Translations under genes and position numbers: made by a program
Shown: positions 2,000-20,101 of the stretch, piece by piece
How positions within the stretch are numbered: the stretch's first letter is position 1
Layout of the letters: each line of letters begins with the position of its first letter
The notes under the pieces: model-generated
The model's database searches: none
Seen by the model: only the letters and a program-made list of their open reading frames with translations
What the model was told of the DNA's origin: nothing
Source: a virus
Virus record (IMG/VR): IMGVR_UViG_3300033153_003914
Span: 1-22,247 of that record
Direction: 5' to 3' (one strand)
Length of the DNA: 22,247 bases

Positions 2000-2045
2000 A
2001 GTGTGTCCTGTTGGGTTACAAGACGTGTATCGACAACAATGCACC

Positions 2046-2069
2046 ATGCATTTCTTATGCATGATGCAT
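2046..2069. promoter_or_regulatory. Cluster of three ATGCAT palindromes upstream of terS
   Basis: ATGCAT occurs at 2046-2051, 2057-2062 and 2064-2069, three copies in 24 bases, in the spacer between the HNH gene and terS. Spacings are 11 and 7 bases. A pac or cos site is often in or next to terS, so a TerS-binding or packaging-start role is a reasonable inference. A regulator-binding role is equally possible. No function is shown by the sequence itself. Confidence 0.4.
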
Positions 2070-2075
2070 CAGCAT

Positions 2076-2094
2076 TAGAGTAGGCATTACTCTA
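2076..2094. repeat. Perfect 7-bp inverted repeat at the end of the HNH gene
   Basis: TAGAGTA, five bases, then TACTCTA form a perfect hairpin that spans the stop codon of the endonuclease gene (2087-2089). No T-run follows on the minus strand, so it is not a standard intrinsic terminator. It may stabilise the mRNA end or separate the endonuclease message from terS. Confidence 0.45.
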
Positions 2095-2887
2095 GGTTGT
2101 TTGTATCATTCTGTTCTGCGTCGTGCTTAGTACTGCGTCTGTGGTAGTTCAGGGGCAGACTTATAGCTTCCTCAAAGGACAGACCCCTACGATGGATACG
2201 CGACCACAGCGTATCCTTATTGAAGCCTAGTTCCCTCTCCCAAGCACTGATGGATAGAGTCTTACCATCGTGAGTGAAGTAGCGGGCAGTTAGGGAGTCA
2301 GGGTTTACTAATGCTTCACCCCTTATACCTGTCTGGTAGCGCCTATGTACAACACCAGACTTGAGACCGTGGTTCTCTGCGTGTTCTGATAGGCAGGCAG
2401 TAACACCGTTGATAGTTGTTATTACATTTACACGGGTGTTACGCATGTTCTGTGTAGCTGTAGCCCATCGTACATTGTCAGGGTAGTAGCTGTCTGAGTT
2501 GTCTATGCGGTCTAGTTGTGCTTTGGGGAAGGGGCGCTGACCCATATCGTCTACGAATCTATCGAAGTCATGCCACTCATCACACACTACAATGCCACGA
2601 CCCTTATAGTAACTGCTTGAGGAGTGATCGTCGCGGTAGCAACGGTTCATCATGTTCATCCACGTCACGTATGTAGGGTTGCTGGTTACGCGAACACGGT
2701 AGGCAGGCTGTGGTTTGTCAGTAACTTTAGACCACGACGTATAGTTCTTGATGTTGTATATAACGTTCAGAGAAACATCGTAGTAGCTTGCTATGGTCTT
2801 TACGTCGATACCATTCTCAATATAACCACGGATAGTTATTACATCCATCTCTCGTAGATGCTTCCTAGGCTTGTTCTTCCGACTCAT
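2087..2887 (-). CDS. Free-standing HNH homing-type endonuclease with N-terminal helix-turn-helix
   Basis: This is a 266-aa DNA-cutting selfish element. Residues 11-48 form a helix-turn-helix (DVITIRGYIENGIDVKTIAS). Residues 71-145 carry the phage HNH signature: TWMNMMNRC (75-83), YYKGRGIVVCDEWHDF (93-108) and LDRIDNSDSYYPDNVRWAT (125-143). Two related DNA-binding modules follow: about 154-196 (INGVTACLSEHAENHGLKS...) and about 205-246 (HDGKTLSISAWERELGF...), both ending in a pattern like GxxxEEAxxxP. The frame stays open to a GTG at 3115, but I start at ATG 2887. The extra 76 residues are Ser/Thr-rich, lack family similarity and are the shadow of the 74-aa gene on another frame. The resulting 23-base overlap with that gene is typical of phage operons. 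It sits next to terS, a common place for such elements. Confidence 0.85.
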   Translation of the reverse strand: MSRKNKPRKHLREMDVITIRGYIENGIDVKTIASYYDVSLNVIYNIKNYTSWSKVTDKPQPAYRVRVTSNPTYVTWMNMMNRCYRDDHSSSSYYKGRGIVVCDEWHDFDRFVDDMGQRPFPKAQLDRIDNSDSYYPDNVRWATATQNMRNTRVNVITTINGVTACLSEHAENHGLKSGVVHRRYQTGIRGEALVNPDSLTARYFTHDGKTLSISAWERELGFNKDTLWSRIHRRGLSFEEAISLPLNYHRRSTKHDAEQNDTNNLE

Positions 2888-3089
2888 CTTCGGCTTCGGT
2901 GTCGGGTTCGTCACCAGTTGCGATGCCTCCGATGTAGTCATAGATGAGTTCTTCTGTGTTGAGTTCCCAGACGTGTTCTGTTCCGTGTCCAGCCCATGTG
3001 ATAATGGTTGGGGGTTCACTACCGACCTCGATGACTTGGTATGATCCATCGCAGGGTCCGCCTCTGATGTCAATTCTGTATCCTGACAT
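2865..3089 (-). CDS. Small protein of unknown function, 74 aa
   Basis: The protein begins MSGYRIDIRGGPCDGSYQVI, is compact and beta-rich by eye, and ends in an acidic tail (DEPDTEAEDESEEQA). Start ATG 3089 follows the stop of the 90-aa gene by 22 bases and has an AAAGAAG stretch as a weak ribosome binding site. The composition is far more protein-like than the overlapping frame of the endonuclease extension, which is why I treat this frame as the real gene between 2888 and 3089. The RGGPCDG segment resembles openings of small uncharacterised phage proteins. I know of no function. It belongs to the cluster of small genes between the promoter and the terminase genes. Confidence 0.65.
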   Translation of the reverse strand: MSGYRIDIRGGPCDGSYQVIEVGSEPPTIITWAGHGTEHVWELNTEELIYDYIGGIATGDEPDTEAEDESEEQA

Positions 3090-3111
3090 ACTTCTTTATC
3101 GGGTTTATCTA

Positions 3112-3384
3112 TCACTGTGCTACTCCTATAGTTAGTATGATCTGTCGTTCTGATGGTGGTAGGTTTAGTTGGTCTTTGACGAGGGCGATGATCTCATCCA
3201 GTTCGCCTGCTGTCAGACCTTTATGTTTGTATATCACGGGGTTGTACTCAACACCTTGATTATCAGCACACTCTAGGATCATAATGTAAGCCCCTAGAGG
3301 TATGTAGTGATAACGAAAGTCAGATAGATGTTTAGCTAGTAGGGTGTCTATTGTCTTAGTTCCTACTCTTCGGTCTGGTCTCAA
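3112..3384 (-). CDS. Hypothetical protein, 90 aa
   Basis: It starts with TTG at 3384, sharing four bases (TTGA) with the stop of the 110-aa gene upstream. A GAGG motif lies five bases before it. The overlap and binding site make the TTG start credible; the first in-frame ATG would remove a third of the protein. It is mixed alpha/beta in appearance, with a hydrophobic middle (YHYIPLGAYIMILECADNQG) and a helical end (GELDEIIALVKDQLNLPPSE). I see no membrane segment, signal or catalytic motif and do not recognise the family. Confidence 0.6.
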   Translation of the reverse strand: MRPDRRVGTKTIDTLLAKHLSDFRYHYIPLGAYIMILECADNQGVEYNPVIYKHKGLTAGELDEIIALVKDQLNLPPSERQIILTIGVAQ

Positions 3385-3713
3385 CTCTGCCTCGCATCTT
3401 CAGCGTCTAGTCGCTCCCACTCCTTCTGGAACTCAGATTTATCTACGCCTGCCACTTGTATAAAATCAGTACGGAAGTCATTGATTGCAGCCTTTATGTC
3501 TGCTGGTGTCGTGCTGTCTATTGCCAACTGTAGTACGCCTAACTCTCGTGGTGTTAGTTGTTTACATGCACGGCGATACTTAGATTGCCGTTCAACACCG
3601 GAGCTACCCCATGTGCTATTATCAAGCATTATCGCGCAGGCAGCCTTATACGCAGCGTCTAGTAGATGGTCGCGTGATTCTGCTTGCACTGCTCTGTGTG
3701 TGTCCCAGTCCAT
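3381..3713 (-). CDS. Hypothetical helical protein, 110 aa
   Basis: The start ATG 3713 overlaps the stop of the 49-aa gene as TAATG, so the two are coupled. The protein is mostly helical and charged (MDWDTHRAVQAESRDHLLDA; KSEFQKEWERLDAEDARQS), with no transmembrane segment or recognisable DNA-binding motif. It is the second gene behind the promoter at 3.9 kb. Position alone suggests an early or regulatory role, but small head-gene-adjacent proteins of unknown function are equally common. I do not recognise it. Confidence 0.65.
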   Translation of the reverse strand: MDWDTHRAVQAESRDHLLDAAYKAACAIMLDNSTWGSSGVERQSKYRRACKQLTPRELGVLQLAIDSTTPADIKAAINDFRTDFIQVAGVDKSEFQKEWERLDAEDARQS

Positions 3714-3862
3714 TACGCTATCTCCGTCTGGGCTAGGTAGTCTATGAAGGAGGTGACTGTCTCGCTACCTTCTGACCCGTCTGGGTACTGGAGGCTGGTG
3801 TTGCAGCGTGCGTCGAGCCAGCAGACTGTTTGGTCTTCGTGGGTCGGGTACAGTTCTTTCAT
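3713..3862 (-). CDS. Small ORF, 49 aa, first gene behind the promoter
   Basis: The protein begins MKELYPTHEDQTVCWLDARC and ends FIDYLAQTEIA. Its stop overlaps the next start as TAATG, the same junction style as confirmed genes here, which is the main evidence that it is real. The start ATG 3862 has only a weak purine stretch (AAAGAAC) upstream. Three consecutive in-frame ATG codons at 3884-3892 offer an alternative start about ten residues longer, beginning with the basic stretch MNVKRKNEMKEL. There are two cysteines and no membrane segment. The function is unknown. Confidence 0.55.
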   Translation of the reverse strand: MKELYPTHEDQTVCWLDARCNTSLQYPDGSEGSETVTSFIDYLAQTEIA

Positions 3863-3898
3863 TTCGTTCTTTCGTTTTACGTTCATCATCATACTATC

Positions 3899-3926
3899 AT
3901 TATAACAGTAATCGGCATCAAAGCAA
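3899..3926 (-). promoter_or_regulatory. Sigma70-like promoter driving the leftward operon
   Basis: On the minus strand the -35 box TTGCTT (3921-3926) is followed by a 16-base spacer and a perfect TATAAT -10 box (3899-3904) with an extended TGn element just upstream. It points into the 49-aa gene, whose start is 37 bases downstream of the -10 box. It is the best promoter match I found and lies at the head of the only gene-free gap, so it could serve the whole head operon. Confidence 0.65.
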
Positions 3927-4041
3927 CGATTATACTGAATAAAAATGCAATTATTTACTTAGGGAATCCCCTTGCATTCTACACGAGTCTGTGTTATCCT
4001 TGGACACTTTATAAGACATATATAGTAAGTAAGAGTTACTG

Positions 4042-4098
4042 ACTCTGCTCTGGGTCAGAGGCTGCCCCAAGGCAAAGCCGAGAAGACCCAGCAAGAGT
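4042..4098. repeat. Complex stem-loop with nested hairpin
   Basis: The core arms CTGGGTC (4050-4056) and GACCCAG (4085-4091) pair perfectly. Outer arms ACTCT (4042-4046) and AGAGT (4094-4098) extend the stem with small bulges. Inside, GGC-TGCC (4060-4066), loop CCAA, and GGCA-AA-GCC (4071-4079) form a second stem. The structure could be a structured RNA 3' end, a DNA cruciform at an origin, or part of a terminator. It lacks a T-run. Confidence 0.55.
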
Positions 4099-4137
4099 AG
4101 ATGACTATAGAGTTAGTAATAGTGTTGTTGTCACTAT

Positions 4138-4161
4138 GATCGCTTGCCTAGAGGCGCGATC
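4138..4161 (-). terminator. Hairpin just after the last tail gene, possible terminator
   Basis: GATCGC (4138-4143) and GCGATC (4156-4161) form the outer stem, with GCC-TAGA-GGC inside it. It begins eight bases beyond the stop of the 64-aa gene in the direction of transcription. The position fits the end of the late operon. The stretch after it (ATAGTGACAAC) has no T-run, so rho-independent termination is doubtful and an RNA-protecting 3' hairpin is an alternative. Confidence 0.4.
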
Positions 4162-4168
4162 AAGACAA

Positions 4169-4363
4169 CTAGACTTCATACACTTTGGACAGTGTTTCTT
4201 GATAAGCACAGGTCTTAATCATGTAATCGAGTCCTGTGAGTGCTTGGCGCTTCTTGATATAAGACTCGGCGGCATCTAAAGAAGACAGGGAGTCCGCCTT
4301 TACCCAGCGTGCTCCCTGCATCCTGTACCATACTTCAAACCAGTTGTCCTTCTTTGGTTGCAT
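4169..4363 (-). CDS. Hypothetical protein, 64 aa, last gene of the tail operon
   Basis: It starts at ATG 4363, one base after the stop of the repeat fibre gene (TAACATG), so it is translationally coupled to it. The sequence is MQPKKDNWFEVWYRMQGARW and onward, aromatic and basic at the start, then helical (SSLDAAESYIKKRQALTG). The pattern resembles small single-domain proteins that modify host or fibre assembly, but I do not recognise a family. There is no signal peptide or membrane segment, so it is not an obvious holin. Confidence 0.6.
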   Translation of the reverse strand: MQPKKDNWFEVWYRMQGARWVKADSLSSLDAAESYIKKRQALTGLDYMIKTCAYQETLSKVYEV

Positions 4364-6772: not shown

Positions 6773-6825
6773 GTTCTCTTTCTGAGGTTCTTAACTTCAC
6801 ATTAACCTCTGTACACTTCTATCGG

Positions 6826-6999
6826 TTAGGCATCTGGGTCTATAAAGTCTTCCATAGCTTCATAGATAGAGTCATCAGCCTTTACGCCCTCTTTCCATAT
6901 CACCTCTATGTCCTCATATACATAAGGACGCGAGGCTTGAAGGGAGCATATCTCATAGCCTAGTGTTGTAAGGTAATCGTGTAAGTTATATAGTCTCAT
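6826..6999 (-). CDS. Small acidic protein, 57 aa
   Basis: The protein begins MRLYNLHDYLTTLGYEICSL and ends in an acidic tail (DSIYEAMEDFIDPDA). The ATG lies one base after the stop of the 660-aa fibre gene (TAATATG), a coupling typical of this genome. There is no clear ribosome binding site of its own. There is one cysteine and no membrane segment. The location among fibre genes suggests a fibre-assembly chaperone, but this is position-only inference. A hydrophobic frame on the opposite strand covers the same bases and is a shadow. Confidence 0.6.
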   Translation of the reverse strand: MRLYNLHDYLTTLGYEICSLQASRPYVYEDIEVIWKEGVKADDSIYEAMEDFIDPDA

Positions 7000-7000
7000 A

Positions 7001-8983
7001 TTAACACCAAAAAGTACCGTATATAGTAGCGTGTTGTACGGTTATAGGAGAGGTCGTAACACTCTGGTATGTCACGTTACCGTTTAGGGTGGCCTCATTC
7101 ATATAGAACGTGTGTGATCCTACCTCAGTACTAGAGTTCTCACCTGTACCATAGTGCATGTGAGTGTGTATCTGACCATCACCCATAGTGTGTCCATCTG
7201 ACTCACCATAATAGGTAGTCGTGCTATCCAAGCCAAAACCTATGCTACTTGAAGCATTAGTTGAACCTTCTACAGTACATGTACCTGTTATATCAATAAT
7301 GTTTATACCCGCCCTACCTATCGTCGCTTCACATTGAAAGCCTGAACCAGCCCAAGCCCGTATGACAGAGCTGTTGTATGTGTGGTCTGCTAGGTTACTA
7401 GTAACGTGTATACGGCGAGGTACACAGTTGTAGAAGTTACACACATGCCTACTGGCACGTCCATCTCCTATCACTGCATTACCACCGCTATCCTGTGTTC
7501 TAACTGTACCTATGTAACGGCGTGTCCTATCACCATTTTTAATCAAACCAAGAAGTACATCACTCACGAGAGCATACCCACGAGAGGTGAGACTAGACCA
7601 TGCTTGTGTATCTAGTTCAACGGAATCTAATTCTGAGTCCCAGTAGGCATATACATCATATACGGTATCCACTAATAGAGTACTGGTTTGTAGTTGGGTT
7701 CTAACTTGCCCTGTGACATTATCAGCGTACAAGTGACAGACACGTAGGGTATCAATTCCGGTTGTGTCTGTGCAGAGTAATATATTGTTAGATGAATAAG
7801 GGGTGTAGTACAAAGTAGTAGCAAGAGCCGGTGCTTCAAACAGTACATTCGTTTGAGTACCATTCATAGTCAGACGGCCACCAACAACACCCGTAGAGGC
7901 CATAGATTGTAGAGTAGCCTTGGTCTTGCCGGTCCCACCGTCACAATCCTCAAGGATTATGTAAGCATCCTCTGTAGCAAGCGGTACTGGGTCTGGGTAG
8001 CCATCAACTGATGTCTCAGAGCAGATGTCAAACTTAGCAGACACCCATTCAGTACCATCATACCACTTGAGTTCGTTAGAGTCGCCGGAGTCAATCATCA
8101 TCATACCAGCTTGCGGGTTGGTATTCAGAGGGTTGGGCGAGATCATAAAGTGGCCGTCGATCTTCAGGCCAAGCTCAGTATCAGGTAGTCCACCTTCGTA
8201 GCCTGTGTAGCAGAGCCAGTGTTCGGTCGCGTTACCAGACACTAAGTCCATACTGAACATACCGCCCTGATTAGGAACAGTATCACCCTCAGAGGGAGAA
8301 CCGAAGGCTAGGTTAGCTACCGCGTCATCACCAGTACTACCGTCATCACGCTGGGAGTTATATAACAACACCGACACGTCTGAGATAGAAGTAGGCCACT
8401 TGGCATCACCGTTCTTGTCGTTACCTCTGAGCATGTAGTCCTGTAGCTCAGGTGAGTGGAACGATAGGAAGCCACGGCCTGTACCCTCATGGATAGCATC
8501 CATGATGGAGTCCTTCTCCCCTGTGCGTACTTGGAAGTAAGGCTGCTGTGTATATAGAGGCTTGTCCGCGTTGAATAGGTACAGTGGAGTCAACCCACCA
8601 ACGATAGGCTGAGTATCCTCTTTAATCTGGTCATCCATCTGGGTCGTGATCATGGAGTAACCAGTACCACACTCCTCTGGGGGTCCTGTAGTTGGCTTCA
8701 CAGGTTCCTTTATCGCAGGTGTCTTTGAGATACCTGGAGCCGGAGCTATAGAGGGGCCACCTGCACCTGGACCCGGTGTGCCTTTAGGTACAGGGACAGC
8801 AGTCTTACAGTGTGCAGGTACTGTTATGTAACCCGGATATTGTTTAACAAAGTTCTCTACGCCGTGCTGTGTTGTGATACCAGATGCAGGTAAGCCCGGA
8901 TACCATTGTGAGGACCCATTGATTGAACCAGATGATAGGAATACAAGGCAGTTCGTAGGATTGAAAGTTAAATATGCGCCCAT
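7001..8983 (-). CDS. Large tail-tip/fibre protein, 660 aa, probable host-binding
   Basis: The protein has a 60-residue N-terminal domain with two cysteines (C12, C59). A Pro/Gly-rich linker follows at about 64-103 (VPKGTPGPGAGGPSIAPAPG). A long beta-rich body comes next (VSGNATEHWLCYTGYEG, ELKWYDGTEWVSAKF). A C-terminal region near residues 604-610 contains QIHTHMH, similar to the HxH metal-binding motifs in T4-type fibre tips, and the chain ends in YGTFWC. The linker-plus-beta layout fits a fibre or tip protein. A strong GGAGGA site precedes the ATG, which overlaps the upstream stop (TAATG). I do not recognise a named family. Confidence 0.7.
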   Translation of the reverse strand: MGAYLTFNPTNCLVFLSSGSINGSSQWYPGLPASGITTQHGVENFVKQYPGYITVPAHCKTAVPVPKGTPGPGAGGPSIAPAPGISKTPAIKEPVKPTTGPPEECGTGYSMITTQMDDQIKEDTQPIVGGLTPLYLFNADKPLYTQQPYFQVRTGEKDSIMDAIHEGTGRGFLSFHSPELQDYMLRGNDKNGDAKWPTSISDVSVLLYNSQRDDGSTGDDAVANLAFGSPSEGDTVPNQGGMFSMDLVSGNATEHWLCYTGYEGGLPDTELGLKIDGHFMISPNPLNTNPQAGMMMIDSGDSNELKWYDGTEWVSAKFDICSETSVDGYPDPVPLATEDAYIILEDCDGGTGKTKATLQSMASTGVVGGRLTMNGTQTNVLFEAPALATTLYYTPYSSNNILLCTDTTGIDTLRVCHLYADNVTGQVRTQLQTSTLLVDTVYDVYAYWDSELDSVELDTQAWSSLTSRGYALVSDVLLGLIKNGDRTRRYIGTVRTQDSGGNAVIGDGRASRHVCNFYNCVPRRIHVTSNLADHTYNSSVIRAWAGSGFQCEATIGRAGINIIDITGTCTVEGSTNASSSIGFGLDSTTTYYGESDGHTMGDGQIHTHMHYGTGENSSTEVGSHTFYMNEATLNGNVTYQSVTTSPITVQHATIYGTFWC

Positions 8984-10164
8984 TATTCTTGTCCTCCCAC
9001 GAAACTAAGTGAGTTATCCATACGTCCTAAGTGAGAATCTGCTCTAGGCTTGAAGTACAATCCAGTCGTCTGCATCTGCTTCTCTACTATGACCTTACTC
9101 TCTGCATAGCTTCTATCGGGGTTACCGTTTACATCCGATGTAGTGCGATCCTTAGTAGTCTCACAAGGCGGTGTTTCTTTGACAGGGAGCTTGACGAACC
9201 AACGCCACAACCCCCTCTTATCTCCACACTGAAATGGATGCTTCTTATTGGCATCATAGTGTAGGTGTACTTCGTAGTCGTTCTTACCGTTCTGTACAGG
9301 CGGGTAGAAGTCCTCGTGGAAGTCAAGAGGAGCCGTGAAGGGCATCTGAGAACCTCGATAGTATGCTCTGGTATCTATTGCGCCAGCAACGAAGTCACCA
9401 TCAGCACTCTGACTGAGTAGGTGCTTGGCAGCGAATGAGGGGATGAACGGTCCACTAGCCTGAAACGAAAAGGCCGCATCCACTCCACCAGCGAAGTGTA
9501 CAGGTAGGAACCCCTGACCTTCTGGGCTGGCTGCACCGTTCAACATGATTGTGTATTGGTCTTCGACCCCTGCATACTTACTACAGTGTGGTTGCCACGT
9601 CTGCACTCTGAAGATGGTATCAAGGCCGGCTCTACGGTCAGGATCAGCAGAGCTACCCTTTATGTCAGATACGATACTAGATAGGGTAGGAGCTTTGTCT
9701 GGGTTCCAGTGAGCCGTCAAGTCTGAACCTTCACCGCCTCTACCACCAACTATGAATGCTATTTTGTCGTGTGTACCGTGACCACCAGTGGATACTACTA
9801 TGGCCTGATCTCCAACCTTCGGAGTGCGGCCGACAGTGTGAACCATCTCTCTTCTGAAGTCATGGTCAGGTGCGCTGTGCGTTAGAAGTGGGAGCCATTC
9901 ATCGTTACCCATGTACTCAGCGGGCATAGCGAATGACCATGAACCCCAAGCACCACGCTTAGTAGTATCGACGTGCTTCCAAAACAGGGTATTACCCGGC
10001 TCTGTGAGGCGCTTGGACTGGAAGTCACCAAGCGACTCTACTGTCTCGTCGTACTTAGTTACACCACTGAGCAGTACACCACCACGCGCACTCTTAGGTA
10101 TACCAGTGTCCGCGTCAAGGGCCATAAGGCCTGTGGTCTGCATGGAGCTGACTTCAAAACTCAT
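8983..10164 (-). CDS. Tail/baseplate protein of unknown fold, 393 aa
   Basis: It is linked to the 637-aa gene by an ATGA overlap, with an AAGGA site before it. The phrase MQTTGL occurs near both ends (residues 8-13 and about 364-369), bracketing the domain. It is aromatic-rich (WRWFVKLP, FHEDFYPP) and has no signal peptide or membrane segment. Its place after the probable tail hub and before the 660-aa fibre suggests a tail-tip adaptor linking hub and fibre. I do not recognise a family. Confidence 0.65.
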   Translation of the reverse strand: MSFEVSSMQTTGLMALDADTGIPKSARGGVLLSGVTKYDETVESLGDFQSKRLTEPGNTLFWKHVDTTKRGAWGSWSFAMPAEYMGNDEWLPLLTHSAPDHDFRREMVHTVGRTPKVGDQAIVVSTGGHGTHDKIAFIVGGRGGEGSDLTAHWNPDKAPTLSSIVSDIKGSSADPDRRAGLDTIFRVQTWQPHCSKYAGVEDQYTIMLNGAASPEGQGFLPVHFAGGVDAAFSFQASGPFIPSFAAKHLLSQSADGDFVAGAIDTRAYYRGSQMPFTAPLDFHEDFYPPVQNGKNDYEVHLHYDANKKHPFQCGDKRGLWRWFVKLPVKETPPCETTKDRTTSDVNGNPDRSYAESKVIVEKQMQTTGLYFKPRADSHLGRMDNSLSFVGGQE

Positions 10165-17172: not shown

Positions 17173-18531
17173 TTAGCTCCAGTCTTCCCAGTTCGCCGTA
17201 GCTGCTACGTCACTGCGGAAGTATCGTCCTAAGCCCATGTTAGCAAAGTACTTCTGTGTAGTACCACCTTCGGCACTTGTAGTCTGAACAGTGAACGTGT
17301 CACCCTTCTTGAAGTCACCGTTAGCGTTACCACTAGCGTCTTGAGTCGTACCGTCGAACAAGGCTGCGGTGTATCCGTTGATGAGTGTAGCGTTAGCCAA
17401 CATCACATCATCGAAGGTTATGGTTCCTACTGCCAGCGATGCCAACTCTACTTGTACCTTCAGCTCTTTAGCAGAGACAGGTATATCGAAGGGGGCGGCG
17501 ATAGCCAAGACCACTGGTACATCGTTAGTCAGAGAGCCTATGGTTATTGAGAGGGTGCCATGTGTAACGCCCTCGTCCCTATCCATCAGCTTAACTGTTA
17601 AAGTACCTGTAGCACTAGACTTACGTTCAACCTTGATAGCCAAGGCTGCCATTGTGCCAGCCTGAATACGACCAGCAGTGAGTAGACTATCCATTACGAA
17701 GTCAGCACTAGCATCGAGAGAGTATGCTCCGTTGATGGGGTCTGTTGACTCCTCAGTTATGGTTGCGTCGCCTGTGGAGATAGTCCATTGACTCAGCTTA
17801 TCTGTTCCTGTGCCGGAGATAGGTGTCTCAAAGTCTCCGTTACGTATCAAGTTACCCGCACCACTGGAAGCTCCAATAGAGCGTATAGTATCGCCTGAGC
17901 CAGCCTTAGGCTGCTGCGAGGCGAAGTCTGTTATTACTGTACCGAAGTCATAGTTGTATGAGGATGAGAGGCCGGAACCGTTCTCTTCCCACGGGTACTT
18001 ACCAGTGCTTGAGCCTTTGATCGTGAACTCTGGTGAGCTTACGCCGTCTACTCTATCGCACTCGAACACGAAGTCTTCTACATGTCCGTAGTCTATGATG
18101 TCGCCACTCAAGTCAACACTACCAACTGATAGTAGTCCTGCGCCAGAACCAACAACTGTTGCTGCTGTATCCTTGGTGTAGCCGCGCTTCTCTATCTCGT
18201 TGCTGTTGTCCACCATGTACTGAGCGAACGTATCTATGTTCTGTGTGAAGTCTGTTAGGTCTGGTGAGCCAGCGAGCCTACCTAGGGCAGGAGCTGACGC
18301 TTGTGCGATACTCTTCCACGTCTCAAAGGCATTACCTAGTTGACTAATAAACTGGTTCATAGCCGTAGTCATCTGTGAGTTCTCTGCTACTTGGTCGCCT
18401 ACTGCTATCTGGGTCTCCAGTGCGTTGAGGTCAGTAGCACCAGTACCAGTTAGGTATGTATGGAATTGGTTACCCAGCTTGGTGATAGCTCTCACAAGGT
18501 CTAGGGTTTCAGTTTCTGTTCGTACAGCCAT
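17173..18531 (-). CDS. Capsid-adjacent structural protein with carbohydrate-binding-like domain, 452 aa
   Basis: It is the gene immediately after the major capsid. Residues 1-120 are helical (LDLVRAITKLGNQFHTYL). About 140-215 are beta. Residues 227-380 look like a CBM4/9-type jelly roll: NLIRNGDFE at 227-235, a tryptophan at 249 (SQWTISTG), and the closing strand GTITFDDVMLANA at 369-381. The end (KYFANMGLGRYFRSD) is another small domain. This suggests a head fibre or capsid decoration that binds glycans. It is preceded by a hairpin that overlaps its upstream region, and AAGGA precedes ATG 18531. A tail-side location is less likely given the gene order. Confidence 0.65.
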   Translation of the reverse strand: MAVRTETETLDLVRAITKLGNQFHTYLTGTGATDLNALETQIAVGDQVAENSQMTTAMNQFISQLGNAFETWKSIAQASAPALGRLAGSPDLTDFTQNIDTFAQYMVDNSNEIEKRGYTKDTAATVVGSGAGLLSVGSVDLSGDIIDYGHVEDFVFECDRVDGVSSPEFTIKGSSTGKYPWEENGSGLSSSYNYDFGTVITDFASQQPKAGSGDTIRSIGASSGAGNLIRNGDFETPISGTGTDKLSQWTISTGDATITEESTDPINGAYSLDASADFVMDSLLTAGRIQAGTMAALAIKVERKSSATGTLTVKLMDRDEGVTHGTLSITIGSLTNDVPVVLAIAAPFDIPVSAKELKVQVELASLAVGTITFDDVMLANATLINGYTAALFDGTTQDASGNANGDFKKGDTFTVQTTSAEGGTTQKYFANMGLGRYFRSDVAATANWEDWS

Positions 18532-18549
18532 TGTGTATTCCTTATGAGA

Positions 18550-18580
18550 AAGAGCCGGCTGTTTTTACCAGCCAGCTCTT
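18550..18580 (-). terminator. Strong 12-bp hairpin after the major capsid gene
   Basis: Arms 18550-18561 and 18569-18580 pair over 12 positions with a single G-T wobble, around a seven-base loop. It lies in the 84-base gap after the capsid stop. Only a short T-rich tail follows (TTTCTC), so partial termination or 3'-end protection that lowers downstream expression relative to capsid is likely. Confidence 0.65.
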
Positions 18581-18615
18581 GCTGTTGTAACTATTGTTTC
18601 TATAAGTACTTACGA

Positions 18616-20034: not shown

Positions 20035-20056
20035 GTTATTATTCCTGTTTTTGTGT

Positions 20057-20084
20057 AGGACACGGTTTCAAAACCGCTGTTCCT
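20057..20084. repeat. Imperfect hairpin between protease and decoration genes
   Basis: CGGTTT (20063-20068) and AAACCG (20071-20076), with outer AGGA (20057-20060) and TCCT (20081-20084), form a stem with small bulges. It is not followed by a T-run on either strand. It may mark an RNA-processing point before the decoration and capsid genes. Confidence 0.45.
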
Positions 20085-20101
20085 ATTTCATCCTACTCGA
20101 A

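Follow-up and report, generated by a model that had tools for sequence, protein, structure and literature searches.

The single large gap of a 22-kb tailed-phage circle is probably its main transcription control region

What is the role of the one sizeable gap in a small tailed-phage circle of which only about 3% is non-coding? The question is raised by the virus record IMGVR_UViG_3300033153_003914, positions 1 to 22,247, which we analysed as a single window of 22,247 bases. The two ends of the window are identical over 114 bp, and the portal gene runs unbroken across the join, encoding a 437-aa protein with a portal family match; the sequence is thus a circle of 22,133 bp. The original prediction regarded the gap both as the most likely replication origin and as the most likely junction of a deletion. 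In our view, this one-directional circle probably has its main transcription control region in the gap, with the tail transcript ending and the following one beginning there.

All recognised genes of the circle lie on the minus strand. They comprise small genes, an HNH endonuclease gene, the genes for the small and large terminase subunits, portal and head genes, followed by neck, probable tape measure and other tail genes, a collagen-like tail fibre and a second fibre. Most tail proteins had no match in Pfam, PHROGs or NCBIfam, and single-sequence structure predictions were of low confidence (mean pLDDT 29.6 for 8983-10164 and 55.4 for 3381-3713). A 74-aa minus-strand ORF at 2865-3089 has the appearance of a genuine small protein. 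It overlaps the HNH ORF (2087-3115) in the N-terminal portion of the latter, whose true start probably lies further in.

According to the ORF map, the gap separates the tail operon from the packaging/head operon and measures 276 bp (3893-4168, minus strand) or 306 bp (3863-4168), depending on whether the next ORF starts at 3892 or at 3862. Upstream, the operon ends with a 64-aa gene of no assigned function (4169-4363, minus strand; stop at 4169). Downstream, the first gene after the promoter (3713-3892, minus strand) encodes 59 aa, or 49 aa from the ATG at 3862, again with no assigned function. The claim that this is the only large gap holds after the addition of small genes: 3893-4168 is then the only non-coding stretch longer than 100 bp, as a 57-aa ORF at 6826-6999 fills most of another apparent gap (6773-7000). 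ORFs with coding signs were found on neither strand of the gap, and no Rfam model matched it. The predicted AT-rich stretch is also there, since the 80-bp window with the lowest GC content of the whole circle (3882-3961, 26% GC) lies in the gap region at the promoter. Read on the coding strand from 4169 to 3892, the order of elements is the stop codon of the 64-aa gene, three hairpins, two TATAAT boxes and the first ATG at 3892.

The best promoter-like site of the coding strand in our motif scan is located at 3899-3926 (minus strand) and consists of TTGCTT, a 16-bp spacer and TGTTATAAT, a TATAAT with TGn extension. This perfect extended -10 element (3904-3899) immediately precedes the first gene of the operon that follows. 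A further TATAAT box, without a good -35, is found upstream of it (3929-3934, minus strand). The coding strand of the circle has no other TATAAT box, and both of these fall into the gap, which makes up 1.4% of the circle; 5.2 would be expected over the circle and 0.07 in the gap. TGnTATAAT occurs nowhere else in the circle on either strand. The site ranks first among 443 coding-strand candidates, a ranking based on our own approximate, E. coli-like weights, from which the sigma-factor preferences of the host may differ. A stricter scan, demanding at least 4 of 6 matching bases in each box, reported no promoter (2.2 expected by chance), because the -35 of the main site matches at only 3 of 6 positions. 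The promoter that had been proposed in the gap is therefore confirmed as the top-scoring site under approximate weights, though not by the stricter scan, and it is this element that leads to the explanation that we favor.

Five inverted repeats had been described in the gap, and all are present, three of them with stems of only 4 to 5 bp: AGGGaatcCCCT (3961-3972, 4-bp stem), ACACgagtctGTGT (3981-3994, 4-bp stem) and AGAGTtactgACTCT (4032-4046, 5-bp stem). The other two are CTGGGTC...GACCCAG (4050-4091), with a 7-bp stem plus inner stems, and GATCGC...GCGATC (4138-4161), with a 6-bp stem plus an inner GCC/GGC. In comparison with dinucleotide shuffles of the 306 nt, the gap contains more stems of at least 4 bp (41 versus 27, P about 0.005), at least 5 bp (15 versus 7, P about 0.005) and at least 7 bp (3 versus 0.46 expected, P 0.01), and its stem count exceeds that of nearly all other windows of the circle. 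Enrichment in stems is therefore genuine, if modest, and none of the three short repeats stands out on its own. Folding of the gap as a whole gave z-scores against shuffles of -2.8 (minus strand) and -3.3 (plus strand), while 150-nt sliding windows overlapping the gap ranged from +0.9 to -2.0 on the coding strand. Other regions ranked higher (z -5.7 for 18459-18608, behind the major-capsid candidate, and z -4.6 for 2034-2183, upstream of terS), and at the 150-nt scale the folding of the gap is not exceptional in this circle.

Three minus-strand hairpins follow the stop codon. The one nearest to it, TGATCGCGCC-TCTA-GGCAAGCGATCA (4137-4162, -12.6 kcal/mol), has no U tract after it. The strongest (4050-4091, -20.1 kcal/mol), which can be extended to 4034-4120 (-28.1 kcal/mol), also lacks a U tract. 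The third, at 3944-3978, is weak (-7.7 kcal/mol) and AT-rich and includes the repeat at 3961-3972; it alone among the three is followed by a T run, and from its sequence it is a possible candidate terminator. A terminator scan found one hit versus 0.8 expected. Hairpins are also present in other spacers of the circle (18532-18615 and 20035-20101), so that intergenic hairpins appear to be normal in this circle. The former, with 12 pairs, lies in the spacer that follows the major-capsid candidate and is the strongest structure of the circle by z-score; it is likely to act as a partial terminator or as an mRNA-protecting hairpin.

Several observations count in favor of a control region, namely the placement of all recognised genes on one strand, the single non-coding stretch longer than 100 bp, the lowest GC content at the promoter, and the order of stop, hairpins, promoter and start. 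On the other side, two of the three hairpins are without a U tract, the third is AT-rich and weak, and the -35 box matches at only half of its positions. In the mechanism that we propose, the tail operon ends at 4169 and the tail message would run on through the hairpins, whose probable role is to mark the 3' end of this message or to protect it. Transcription by host RNA polymerase would resume at the extended -10 promoter (3926-3899), perhaps helped by the upstream TATAAT, and the new transcript would cover the genes from the small ones through those for HNH endonuclease, terminase and portal to the head genes and beyond. We infer that transcription does start from the promoter, that the hairpins function at the RNA level, and that the gap does not serve as an operator or packaging site in addition.

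A packaging site (cos or pac) would explain the same elements differently: the hairpins would bind terminase, and the AT-rich part would be a bend site, a short distance upstream of the terminase genes. The site is near terminase and HNH genes in many cos phages. In the circle, the gap is found about 1.9 kb upstream of the probable terS start (1999, with a good ribosome site), with just small genes and the HNH gene between, and it does have paired hairpins and an AT-rich stretch. However, a stronger hairpin of 14 pairs (2038-2070, minus strand, about -19.9 kcal/mol) is located directly before terS, and the 114-bp end overlap falls in the portal gene, away from the gap. We therefore regard a packaging site in the gap as unlikely. 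The 87-bp spacer around the stronger hairpin (2000-2086) is a rival candidate packaging site, or a candidate control element of terS. The 2038-2070 hairpin is among the strongest structured spots of the circle.

A replication origin in the gap, as originally predicted, is very unlikely. The gap is AT-rich, has several inverted repeats and is the single non-coding region, and the AT-skew minimum lies at 3901 (P about 0.02), a weak signal. This minimum coincides with the promoter, however, and is equally well explained by transcription, and stronger hairpins exist elsewhere in the circle. There is no DnaA box in the whole circle and there are no iterons in the gap. No replication initiator gene was recognised in the circle either, most of whose proteins are too diverged for family searches. 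A switch of GC skew at the gap had been suggested as a check; cumulative GC skew turns at about 5777 instead, where the 467-aa tail-fibre gene starts, and its range is not significant (P 0.09).

The alternative reading of the original prediction was a deletion scar in the gap. Loss of early and lysis modules there would make the circle defective or helper-dependent. The positional argument of the prediction, that early and lysis genes of related phages normally lie between tail fibres and head genes, is a fair one. Remote relatives carry such genes upstream of the terminase: a DnaB helicase in L008, whose TerL is 33% identical, and an M15-peptidase lysin in L125, a Bacteroidetes-assigned phage contig with a near copy, L228. 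On the coding strand of the circle, no replication gene, lysis gene or small membrane protein was recognised. Among the proteins scanned, Pfam, PHROGs and NCBIfam gave no replication or lysis family, and six-frame searches of the circle detected no DnaB, DNA polymerase A, M15 peptidase or amidase. A search for a hidden holin found no convincing membrane ORF on the coding strand. Nevertheless, nearly all proteins are too diverged for family searches, and since most tail proteins have no family match, a diverged lysis gene could have escaped notice.

The gap itself does not look like such a scar. A random junction would not be expected to sit so tidily between a stop codon and a promoter, and the gap holds no remnant ORF or other recognisable gene remnant. 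None of its 13-mers recurs elsewhere in the circle, which rules against a repeat-mediated deletion. Siphoviruses of Microbacterium cluster EE, with genomes of 17.0-17.5 kb, are known to lack many non-structural genes while keeping a lysis cassette and regulators (PMC7302621). Together, these observations make a deletion junction highly improbable. What is odd about the circle is less the gap than that no replication or lysis gene can be recognised in it.

Comparison with relatives was limited to remote ones. Exact-peptide scans with the TerL, capsid, portal and baseplate proteins revealed no close relatives. When 50,697 phage records were searched at the DNA and protein level, just remote TerL matches and weak matches of one head protein came up, and in a degenerate TerL scan the best identity among the matches listed was 33%. 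None of these searches found a relative close enough for alignment of the gap. L125 shares TerL (25% identical), a head protein (37%) and a neck protein (31%) with the circle, in the same order, but differs by its lysin upstream of TerL, and the genes in the protease and capsid positions could not be aligned. The head protein at 19612-20034 matches PHROG 1731 and a protein of L125, and has weak matches to structural proteins of Rhodobacter phage RC1, Rhodovulum phage RS1 and two marine siphoviruses.

It is also conceivable, but decidedly unlikely, that the circle is a natural tailed-phage genome or segment with virion and packaging genes only, for which a partner element or the host supplies replication and lysis; the gap would then be its single control, origin and recognition region. 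Sharing of the gap sequence with another circle, which had been proposed as support for a segmented genome, was not observed: exact 19-base and 25-base gap probes had no match among 2.9 million viral contigs of IMG/VR, a search in which diverged copies would be missed. A literature search at title and abstract level yielded nothing pertinent on segmented tailed phages. Of the earlier interpretation, the promoter and the positional remark are thus supported, and the origin, the deletion scar and the shared segment are unsupported. While the gap itself would be ordinary control DNA, it is a place to test the larger puzzle of a closed 22-kb tailed-phage circle without a recognisable replication or lysis gene. 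Discovery of a partner circle carrying the same promoter would be relevant to the question of whether the genome of a tailed phage can be divided.

Among known phages, those of Microbacterium cluster EE and Rhodococcus phage RRH1 are, compared by description only, similar to the circle in being compact, in consisting almost entirely of virion genes together with an HNH gene, and in having no recognised integrase or repressor (PMC7302621). By the same kind of comparison, cluster EE differs in its protease-scaffold-capsid fusion, where the capsid-like and protease-like genes of the circle appear separate, and in its retained lysis cassette and regulators, where no lysis gene was recognised in the circle. 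With respect to the gap, the closest parallel to a control region is provided by the intergenic promoter/terminator regions of one-directional tailed phages. The stronger hairpins of the gap differ from these in having no classical U tract. In other respects, the gap resembles them: it is AT-rich, lies between the end of a structural operon and the start of the next operon, and presents hairpins followed by a sigma-70-like promoter.
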